Source of the DNA: Verrucomicrobiota bacterium JB024
GTDB lineage: Bacteria > Verrucomicrobiota > Verrucomicrobiia > Opitutales > Cerasicoccaceae
NCBI GenBank assembly: GCA_030673825.1
Contig: JAUTCS010000159.1
Location: forward strand, 62,001 to 126,000
Direction: 5' to 3'
DNA: 64,000 nt
Shown here piece by piece: positions 49,451 through 60,237 of the stretch. Each line of letters starts with the position of its first letter. Within the stretch, counting starts at the first letter, position 1. The position numbers were made by a program, and so were the translations under genes. The notes below the pieces were generated by a model. It did no database searches and was not told the DNA's origin. It saw only the letters and a program-made list of their open reading frames with translations.

Positions 49451-49706
49451 CGTCTTTACCGCCGGTGCGGGTGAGACGGGGTTCAGGTGATCCCAGTAGG
49501 AGGGCAGGGCCAGAGGCACGCGATGGAGTGGGGATTGTGCCGGGGGTGTATTGTAAAAAAAAGCGTCATGGGCTACATTACGGTCGTTTGTATTTACAGT
49601 CCACAGCCAGAAAAAGCCGCACGTGTATGTTTCGCGCTGGACGTCAGCGCGGGGCATGGTTGTATGGCGGATCATTGATGGTCGCAGCGCGTGGAGGTTG
49701 ACGTCT
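49451..49706. other. Leader of the PAS-SpoIIE gene, no gene seen
   Basis: The 256 nt between the terminator and the next start hold no convincing frame. A good ribosome-binding site (GGAGG at 49693-49697) precedes the ATG at 49707. A minus-strand frame crosses the region but has no start site or recognisable motif. Confidence 0.5.
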
Positions 49707-50909
49707 ATGAAAACACACGAAGTCAAGCAGGTTCAGGACATCTACCGGATGAGTATTCCGGCGTTGTTCGACGCGCTCCTGAAGGAGTCCGAGGACTGCA
49801 TTTACTTCAAGGACATGAAGTGCCGCTTCGTGTACGTCAGTCACCGGCATGCGCAGAAGTTCGGTGTCAGCTCGCTGGACGAGATCGTGGGCAAGACGGA
49901 CTTCGACTTTTTCACCGAGGAGCACGCCAAGCAGGCTTATGAGGACGAGCAGGAGATCCTGCGCAGTGGCAAGGCTCTCATCAACGAGACCGAAAAGGAA
50001 ACCTGGCCCGACGGAACCATCACCTGGGTCACCTCAACCAAGATCCCGCTGCACCTGAACTCGGGTAAGCTGGTTGGCATCCTCGGTATCTCGCGCGACA
50101 TTACCCGCGAGAAGCTCGCCCTGGACAAGCTGGAGGACTCCGAAAAGCGCCTGCGCGAGAAAAACCGCATCCTCCAGATCGACTACGACAACGCCCGTCG
50201 CGTGCAGAGCGCGCTCATCCCCGGCGAGTCGCAGCCGTGCAGTTTTTTAAAGTACTCCGTCGTCTATAACCCGCTGGAGGCGGTCGGCGGCGACGTCCTG
50301 AGCTTTCCCACCGGGCAGCCGGACGAGTTCATGGTTATCCTCGGCGATGTCTGCGGGCACGGTATCTCCGCCGCGCTCTACACCCTGCTGGTCAAGCACG
50401 TGGCCGACCAGGCCGCGGTGAATCACCCCGACCGCCTGGAGATCGCCATGGAGCAGGTGCAGGAGGAGATTTCCGAGCTGGTGCGCCCGAACTACGTGAC
50501 CATGGTCGCCGGGCGTATCCGCCGCACGGACGATGGCTACCAGTTGAACGTGGCCCACGCCGGGCATCCGGACATCCTGCACTACGACAGCCAAAGCGGC
50601 GAAGTCGAGGTGATCCGGCTCAAGCCGCAGGACGCGATCGGGTTTGTCACCGGGCGCGAACGCCGTGGGCAGGTCTTCGAGCTTTCGAAGGGCGACCGCT
50701 TGCTCTTTTACACGGACGGGGCGGTGGAAACCGTCAATGAGTGTGCTGAGGAATTCGAGCTAGACCGGCTGGTCGAGGCTTTCAAGGCCGAGCTCCAGGC
50801 TCCGATCAAGGACATGGCGGGAAACATTGGCAAGCGCGTGCGCGCGTTTCGCGGTAAGGCCCCGCGCATGGATGACGTGACCCTGCTGGCGGTCGAGATC
50901 AGCGGTTAG
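49707..50909 (+). CDS. PAS domain SpoIIE-family (PP2C) serine phosphatase
   Basis: A 400-residue cytoplasmic signalling protein. A PAS domain covers about residues 15-140 (Y-F-K-D-M-K-C-R-F-V-Y-V-S near 33, I-S-R-D-I-T-R-E-K at the end), followed by a short coiled coil. A SpoIIE-type phosphatase covers about 185-400, with G-G-D-V-L-S, L-G-D-V-C-G-H-G and F-Y-T-D-G-A-V-E supplying the metal-binding Asp residues. Such proteins usually dephosphorylate an anti-sigma-factor antagonist, but no STAS or HPK-type gene is adjacent. The start is set by GGAGG 9 nt upstream. Confidence 0.92.
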   Translation: MKTHEVKQVQDIYRMSIPALFDALLKESEDCIYFKDMKCRFVYVSHRHAQKFGVSSLDEIVGKTDFDFFTEEHAKQAYEDEQEILRSGKALINETEKETWPDGTITWVTSTKIPLHLNSGKLVGILGISRDITREKLALDKLEDSEKRLREKNRILQIDYDNARRVQSALIPGESQPCSFLKYSVVYNPLEAVGGDVLSFPTGQPDEFMVILGDVCGHGISAALYTLLVKHVADQAAVNHPDRLEIAMEQVQEEISELVRPNYVTMVAGRIRRTDDGYQLNVAHAGHPDILHYDSQSGEVEVIRLKPQDAIGFVTGRERRGQVFELSKGDRLLFYTDGAVETVNECAEEFELDRLVEAFKAELQAPIKDMAGNIGKRVRAFRGKAPRMDDVTLLAVEISG

Positions 50910-50950
50910 GGCAAGTTTGCCCGCTGTTCGTTGCGGAGAGAACCGTGTTT

Positions 50951-51218
50951 TTAACCACAGAGGACACAGAGAGCACAGAGGCTATTTAGAGGGCTTTAAA
51001 CGAAGTCGCAGCCATTACTCCCTCAACGTTGCGTCTTCGTGTCTCTGTGGTGAAAAAGAGATGAACCGCAGAGGCGCAAAGACGCAGAGTCGATGAGAGA
51101 AGGGCTACGGCCTTACTTATACCCCAACCTTGGGCGGAGAGGGCGCGTCTCCTGATCAGTGGCATCCGTGTTATCCGTGGTTAAGCCCCTCTGTGCTCTC
51201 TGTGTCCTCTGTGGTTAA
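50951..51218. repeat. CACAGAG-family palindromic element A, 31-bp perfect inverted ends
   Basis: The 31-bp end at 50951-50981 (starting TTAACCACAGAGGACACAGA) is repeated exactly in inverse at 51188-51218. Inner words (GCGTCTTCGTGTCTCTGTGG at about 51030 and ACCGCAGAGGCGCAAAGACG at about 51064) are a second, diverged inverted pair, and a third motif (ATCCGTGTTATCCGTGGTTAA) adjoins the right end. There is no coding frame inside. It fills most of the gap between the PAS-SpoIIE gene and hemA, ending 12 nt from the hemA stop. Confidence 0.85.
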
Positions 51219-51230
51219 CCTCTTCTTTCT

Positions 51231-52268
51231 CTAAGCGCGGCCGCAGAGGTGGGTCCAGAGGTGAGTGGCGCGTTCGACGAGGGCATGGCGGGCCTTTTCG
51301 ACTTCGGCCTGGCGGGCTTTGAGGTTCTCGTTGGCGATGGCGGCGAGGTCGTCGAGGTTGTAGAGGTAGACGTTGCTGAGTTTGCCGACGGCGGGCTCGA
51401 TGTCGCGGGGCAGGGCCAGGTCGATGGCGAAGAGCGGGCGCGTCGGGCGCTGGCGCAGGGCAGGGGCGACCTGGTCCTTGCGCAGGAGCGGTTCGGGCGA
51501 GGCGGTCGAGCAGATCACGATGTCGTGAAAGGTCAGCACCCGCGGCACATCGGCCACGCTCATGCAGGGGCCTTGAAAGGAGTCGGCCAACTGGCGGGCC
51601 TTAATCAGGTTGCGCCCGGCCACGGTGACGCGGGAGGCCCCCCGGCTGACGAGGGCTTGGACGGTCTTTTCGGCCACTTCGCCCGTGCCCACGAGCAGGA
51701 CGGAAATCTCCTGAAGCTCGCCGCAGACGCGCTGGGCGAGCTCGGCGGCGACATTGCCGATGCTGACCTGGCCCCGGCTGATGCCTGTGTGGGTGCGGGC
51801 CCACTTGGCGGCCTGGAAGCTTTTTTGGAAAAGGCGGTTAAGGATGGGGCCGGTGGAGGCGGTGGCAGCGGCTCCGGCGTAGGAGCTCTTGATCTGGCCT
51901 AGGATCTCGGTCTCGCCGACCATCTGCGAGTCCAGCCCGGCTGCCACCTCGAAGGCATGCCGGACGACTTCCTCGCCCGTGAGCCAGAACCCGTGCCGCA
52001 CGAAGGCCGCGGTGTCGAAGCCGTGGGAGCGGCTGAGCGACTCCTCCAGCCGGGTGCGGCTCTCGGGGCCATTGGCGACGCCGTAGATTTCGACGCGGTT
52101 GCAGGTGTTGAGGATGAGGCATTCGCTCAGTCCGGCCTGTTCCTTGAGGCTGGTGTAAAGGGCCTGGGCGGAGTCGGCGTTGAGCGCGAAGGACTCCCGC
52201 ACCTCCAGTGGTGCGGTGCGGTGCGAGCTGCCGAGCAGGAAGAGTTGGGGGGACTCAACGGCTTGCAT
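51231..52268 (-). CDS. hemA: Glutamyl-tRNA reductase, short form
   Basis: A 345-residue HemA, making glutamate-1-semialdehyde from Glu-tRNA in the C5 route to heme. The start S-S-H-R-T-A-P-L-E-V-R-E, the catalytic Cys in L-N-T-C-N-R-V-E-I-Y and the NADPH domain V-G-T-G-E-V-A-E are present. It ends at R-A-T-H-L-W-T-H-L-C-G-R-A, about 70 residues short of E. coli HemA, so most of the C-terminal dimerisation domain is absent. The gene end lies 12 nt from a palindromic element. Its start overlaps the end of the ccsA-like gene by 14 nt. Confidence 0.92.
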   Translation of the reverse strand: MQAVESPQLFLLGSSHRTAPLEVRESFALNADSAQALYTSLKEQAGLSECLILNTCNRVEIYGVANGPESRTRLEESLSRSHGFDTAAFVRHGFWLTGEEVVRHAFEVAAGLDSQMVGETEILGQIKSSYAGAAATASTGPILNRLFQKSFQAAKWARTHTGISRGQVSIGNVAAELAQRVCGELQEISVLLVGTGEVAEKTVQALVSRGASRVTVAGRNLIKARQLADSFQGPCMSVADVPRVLTFHDIVICSTASPEPLLRKDQVAPALRQRPTRPLFAIDLALPRDIEPAVGKLSNVYLYNLDDLAAIANENLKARQAEVEKARHALVERATHLWTHLCGRA

Positions 52269-60170: not shown

Positions 60171-60237
60171 TTAACCACAGAGTTCACAGAGAGCACAGAG
60201 GTCGAGTCTCTGTGTCCTTTGTGACCTCTGTGGTTAA
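60171..60237. repeat. CACAGAG-family palindromic element B (67 bp)
   Basis: The ends TTAACCACAGAG (60171-60182) and CTCTGTGGTTAA (60226-60237) are perfect inverted repeats; the interior is made of further CACAGAG and CTCTGTG words. It lies between hemE and hemF and matches the ends of element A at 50951. Confidence 0.8.

Follow-up and report, generated by a model that had tools for sequence, protein, structure and literature searches.

A gene-less repeat beside hemA in Verrucomicrobiota bacterium JB024 points to a family of mobile elements with GxxExxY genes and tandem-word arms

A 268-bp intergenic feature of Verrucomicrobiota bacterium JB024 points to a widespread, apparently undescribed kind of mobile element in many bacterial phyla and some archaea. 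The feature very likely belongs to the terminal repeats of a mobile-element family that carries GxxExxY genes. It is well supported that the feature is a gene-less composite in which arms of three subfamilies stand side by side, each subfamily having its own GxxExxY gene elsewhere in the genome and the CACAGAG pair happening to be outermost. We consider it probable that the feature and its family are word-array mobile elements whose GxxExxY protein acts on its own words, and we put the chance that this nuclease-like protein is itself the mover at about even.

Structure and setting of the feature

The feature lies in the window (the whole 64,000-nt stretch analysed, from contig JAUTCS010000159.1) and occupies the spacer between hemA (stop 51231) and a convergent neighbour that encodes a PAS-SpoIIE phosphatase (stop 50909). 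The first-pass annotation had described perfect 31-bp inverted ends, no coding frame and a distance of 12 nt from the hemA stop, and all of this was borne out: the terminal arms are 100% complementary (31/31) with 206 nt between them, about 4e-12 such 31-nt inverted pairs being expected in 64 kb by chance, and none of the long ORFs listed for the window falls inside 50951-51218. The strand folds at -139.9 kcal/mol (shuffle mean -87.2, z = -11).

We found that the feature consists of five arms in a row, and that every arm has about three tandem 7-nt words at a period of 8-9 and, at its start, a TT(A/C)ACC-like head (Table 1). The arms are inverted with their heads outward, their tandem structure was tested against shuffles, and their word types are CACAGAG, CGCAGAG/CGCAAAG and CACGGAT. 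Nested and more diverged inverted repeats, which had also been noted, do exist between the perfect ends, but they are three more arms, different in word type, and not decayed inner repeats. A 137-nt piece (50950-51086) was found again at G000:C155:9880-10017 with 79% identity. None of the seven GxxExxY genes of the genome lies inside 50951-51218, so the feature is not a full element with a gene between its arms. Rfam at the gathering threshold gave no match to the feature, the sub-threshold matches being to miRNA models only. A terminator reading was rejected, because the scan matches at 50909-50947 fall outside the arms.

Table 1. Arms of the 268-bp feature, neighbouring genes and the second copy in the window
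Feature	Position	Strand	Description
PAS + SpoIIE phosphatase gene, start codon uncertain	49623..50909	+	Neighbour; PF07228, PF08448; stop codon 41 nt from feature
Outer left arm	50951..50981	+	TTAACC + three CACAGAG words, period 9; 30/30 identical to 5' arm of GxxExxY gene at G000:C119:107430 (L167)
Inner arm TTTTTCACCACAGAGACACGAAGACGCAACG, words CACAGAG/CACGAAG/CGCAACG	51027..51057	-	With 50951-50981 delimits a 107-nt sub-unit
Inner arm, CGCAGAG/CGCAAAG type, period 8	51063..51089	+	Best own GxxExxY arm L168 (gene at C92), score 22/27
Inner arm, CACGGAT type (TTAACCACGGATAACACGGATGCCACTGAT)	51155..51184	-	Best own GxxExxY arm L172 (gene at C132), score 24/30
Outer right arm	51188..51218	-	Exact reverse complement of 50951-50981
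hemA (glutamyl-tRNA reductase)	51231..52268	-	Neighbour; PF05201, PF01488; stop codon 12 nt from feature
Second copy in the window	60171..60237		Short hairpin, two CACAGAG arms, 6-nt loop

The repeat family and its GxxExxY genes in JB024

A BLAST search of the genome, proposed earlier as a count of copies, gave 93 matches to parts of the feature, and triple-word arrays numbered 213 genome-wide, while the reversed control pattern gave 0. At C119, a pair of arrays brackets a small ORF that encodes GxxExxY (TIGR04256, E = 5e-44; PF13366). The PF13366 genes of this genome are all flanked by inverted arrays (7/7), each gene having its own words that match on both sides. The outer arms of the feature equal the arm of the C119 gene, and thus the same genome has a GxxExxY gene whose arms carry these words. 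The likely partner gene, which had been expected to be a transposase, is GxxExxY, with a predicted nuclease fold, and not a recognised transposase. RAYT/Y1_Tnp was rejected as the partner, since the four Y1_Tnp loci of this genome have no such arms around them, and the feature does not conform to a REP/RAYT arrangement.

Sixteen diverse GxxExxY members keep G24xxE27, D67, E77xK79 and Q91xxxY95 (positions as in the 130-aa L167 protein), E77 being nearly invariant and the rest invariant, which is the residue pattern of RecB/Cas4/lambda-exonuclease-type PD-(D/E)XK nucleases. An AlphaFold2 model reached pLDDT 92 and pTM 0.84 (built on 6 sequences only, 2/5 models confident), and its best PDB matches were the Cas4 nuclease SSO0001, LHK-Exo and lambda exonuclease (TM 0.45-0.54 by query length). 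Comparison with Cas4 HMMs gave weak matches, which agree with the model, and GxxExxY is therefore predicted to be a nuclease-like protein of about 125 aa with a Cas4/lambda-exonuclease-like fold.

Distribution across genomes and phyla

GxxExxY loci were drawn from the phylum, from 45 genomes of many phyla with an exact 27-mer of the arm, from Bacteroides and from further places, and inverted arms were called at a score of at least 17. Such arms were present at 129 of 164 distinct near-full GxxExxY genes across bacteria and archaea, while the other 35 showed no strong arms. A stricter test gave 55/65 for GxxExxY, 0/16 for HemA and 0/3 for Y1_Tnp, and none of the 420 shuffles made from these three gene sets reached 17. 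Shuffles and control genes served as the null, as a swapped-pair null was uninformative because words are common to several loci. Moreover, gene and arrays co-occur: among 145 genomes of the phylum, arrays were found in 65/69 with PF13366 versus 5/76 without it (Fisher 6e-30), and within the 11 taxonomic families represented by genomes of both kinds, in 24/27 with the gene versus 1/60 without.

The exact 27-mer ACCACAGAGGACACAGAGAGCACAGAG occurs, among the matches listed, in over 100 contigs that represent many phyla, including the isolates Methylobacter luteus, Amphritea atlantica, Chitiniphilus shinanonensis, Bacteroides nordii and Lacipirellula limnantheis and the archaeon Methanoperedens nitroreducens. 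Since isolates carry it, MAG binning errors cannot account for the whole spread. The perfection of the ends had been taken as a sign of recent spread or gene conversion; however, the same 30-33 nt stand at other loci and the same 27-mer in many phyla, so the perfect ends represent the family consensus and do not show either process. A PF13366 match was absent in 9/45 genomes carrying the exact 27-mer and in 4/15 array-rich Bacteroides genomes, where gene loss after spread is possible.

The plasmid collection gave few matches, and the phage and E. coli collections gave none. In Pseudoalteromonas shioyasakiensis megaplasmids (L235, L236), blocks of about 200-400 nt that contain CACAGAG are repeated in tandem close to an EAL gene. 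At another locus (L191), long inverted duplicates with the palindrome TTGACAAATGGGGTACTCGCCATTTGTCAA lie near a GxxExxY gene.

Co-variation of words and proteins

Arm similarity followed protein similarity (Spearman 0.375, permutation maximum 0.115), also among diverged pairs with a relative score below 0.6 (Spearman 0.315), and the nearest protein neighbour had the same word class in 89/120 cases (expected 35). Part of this correlation is shared descent of gene and arms. However, arms stay similar despite strongly diverged proteins, an argument for selection on the words.

At one radA site of Bacteroides (L241, L242, L245, L267-L270), GxxExxY elements have differing word types, CACAGAG or CACAGATTA, reflecting either repeated insertion or word turnover.

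Insertion sites and mobility

Empty sites, a check suggested for the feature, were found for family copies. In the Bacteroides spacer between radA and the gene of an FAD protein, GxxExxY gene and arms were present in 10/60 genomes, and in most others the spacer was short and free of both, lone or degenerate arm remnants being seen in L263 and L255. Sister species also show spanning empty sites for gene-less copies (L320 vs G227 and G218; L328 vs G227, G207 and G218; L331; L327). These comparisons are between species at 76-88% identity, and no strain-level movement event was seen among them. G215 and G265 were rejected as a same-strain pair, as only one contig is 99% identical and other loci are at about 77%; that contig (C66 of G265, with L237, L238 and L323) is probably MAG binning contamination. 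For the window copy, nine relatives, including three from its own genus, have no array beside hemA. The neighbours differ there, which leaves no base-exact empty site.

Target duplications, another check proposed at the outset, did not appear: none of 2-9 nt was above expectation in 136 distinct pairs of the family and none was seen at the empty sites. TTAA or any other target duplication was rejected, as the ends are inverted and the flank statistics are flat. Arm pairs face outward in 54 cases versus 9 in the opposite order. The loops between paired arms are mostly shorter than 100 nt, most arrays being gene-less short hairpins, and Bacteroides copies lie past stop codons at a median of 16.5 nt from a 3' end. 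No transposase lies between such arms in 117 loci, where the clear coding inserts are GxxExxY and one IVP-like fragment.

Six gene-less Bacteroides copies (L321, L325, L328, L331, L332, L334) have a common inner sequence of about 65 nt in either orientation and, judged from sequence, look like a true miniature-element subfamily.

IVP genes with a parallel layout

IVP/S23p (PF05635) genes (L366-L395) also have inverted tandem-word arms, in 22/30 loci, with words quite unlike CACAGAG, e.g., TTCAGTATTCAG or GTTAGGCTGTTAG, and tandem structure was significant (p < 0.05) in 19/21 of these arms. The IVP protein belongs to the 23S rRNA intervening sequences; these measure about 0.43 kb and have inverted ends of about 28 bp (PMC4990558). 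This suggests that IVP and GxxExxY elements have a common layout, and the rRNA intervening sequences and GxxExxY elements may form one broader class. As IVP is not a nuclease and has analogous arms, the claim of the nuclease as lone mover is weakened.

Proposed mechanism and alternative explanations

In the explanation that we favour, the full element is about 0.45 kb long, one GxxExxY gene (PD-(D/E)XK fold, PF13366/TIGR04256) being bracketed by inverted arms of about 30 nt with a TT(A/C)ACC start, and gene-less hairpin copies are dispersed between genes, usually just past a stop codon. We infer that the GxxExxY protein recognises arrays of its own word type, binds them at either end of the element, perhaps as an extruded hairpin, and cuts or resects the DNA at the bound arms. 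The element would then be copied or moved, and host repair would seal the site without a target duplication. Gene-less copies would retain the words and be mobilised in trans, and a hairpin inserted past a stop codon would be harmless.

The same loci could have arisen if GxxExxY were a homing-type gene that invades pre-existing hairpins, cuts the loop and copies itself in, the arrays being an independent repeat family. Such a history would suit the many gene-less short hairpins (loops < 100 nt), the nuclease-like fold and the lone arm without a gene at radA in L263, but we regard it as unlikely, because array presence is almost fully gene-dependent (65/69 vs 5/76), word type tracks the protein, and the radA genomes without the gene are mostly without arms too. 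It is similarly improbable that another enzyme common to GxxExxY and IVP elements (host repair, a reverse transcriptase or an unlinked transposase) mobilises the arms, with GxxExxY and IVP as nucleic-acid-binding accessories or addictive passengers. No such enzyme was found between the arms, whose clear coding inserts were GxxExxY and one IVP-like fragment, and Y1 transposase genes have no such arms, although genes of the IVP protein, a four-helix bundle and no nuclease, have the same layout with other words (22/30), and some array-bearing genomes are without PF13366.

The MITE-like layout proposed at first holds in part: the feature is non-coding, shorter than 600 bp, with inverted-repeat ends and many genomic relatives, and its layout makes the window copy a MITE-like derivative, but the family shows neither a target duplication nor a recognised transposase partner, the ends being common to GxxExxY genes instead of a transposase-bearing autonomous element. 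Were the feature a classical MITE, derived from a DDE transposon and having both terminal inverted repeats and target duplications, this would explain the layout, the empty sites and the inner sequence conserved in some Bacteroides copies. However, the lack of 2-9 nt target duplications in 136 pairs, together with the gene association (a nuclease-like partner and no transposase between arms in 117 loci), largely refutes this reading, which retains hardly any probability. Strong folding and the position of copies near stop codons (median 16.5 nt from the 3' end) would be expected of selected, non-mobile host palindromes such as bidirectional terminators, RNase III sites or mRNA-stability hairpins; these are very unlikely, however, given that copies are species-specific at orthologous sites and depend on one gene, and that the arms have no T-run terminator signature. 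Returning to the word-array explanation, the class would be categorically new if the nuclease is the mobilising enzyme. Further, we propose only tentatively that a stand-alone Cas4/lambda-exonuclease-like protein recognises its own tandem-word arrays, mobilises copies with and without the gene while leaving no target duplication, and defines, with IVP as a parallel branch, a categorically new class of minimal mobile elements in bacterial phyla and archaea.

Relation to known systems

REP/BIME sequences with RAYT (Y1_Tnp) are similar in being small extragenic inverted-pair repeats tied to the gene of a single-domain enzyme. The REP unit is an imperfect palindrome, whereas the unit of the GxxExxY family is a tandem-word array, and the four Y1_Tnp loci of this genome are without arms. 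Prokaryotic MITEs (PMC10969869) are likewise short, non-coding and numerous, with inverted ends, empty sites and a partner gene elsewhere; in contrast, the GxxExxY family has no target duplication or transposase partner, its arms consist of tandem words, and its words are common to phyla and domains. 23S rRNA intervening sequences with an S23p/IVP ORF, e.g., that of Coxiella burnetii, which has been described as selfish (PMC4990558), are also alike (about 0.43 kb, one small ORF, a stem of inverted terminal repeats of about 28 bp), but GxxExxY elements lie between genes and not in rRNA, their protein is nuclease-like and their arms are tandem words; the feature itself sits in the spacer between the SpoIIE-like gene and hemA and has no ORF. 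The fold and motif pattern of GxxExxY resemble those of Cas4/lambda-exonuclease (RecB-type) nucleases and casposons (PMC4046053), whereas GxxExxY stands alone at about 125 aa, without Cas1 or an integrase.

In the literature searched, which consisted of journal papers with subscription titles only in part, we found no earlier link of GxxExxY to repeats and no description of the element. GxxExxY is a common family without an assigned function that is named in two of 5.39 million papers. Its link to repeats provides a role that can be tested, accounts for dispersed repeats in many phyla and suggests that one small Cas4-like nuclease may suffice for transposition. A 27-mer common to distant phyla would be a striking example of a mobile recognition sequence that is conserved between domains. 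With the parallel IVP arms, the rRNA intervening sequences, long without an explanation, would become part of a larger class. In a survey of reverse transcriptases, one gene was called cas4 by one pipeline and GxxExxY by another (PMC8934634).
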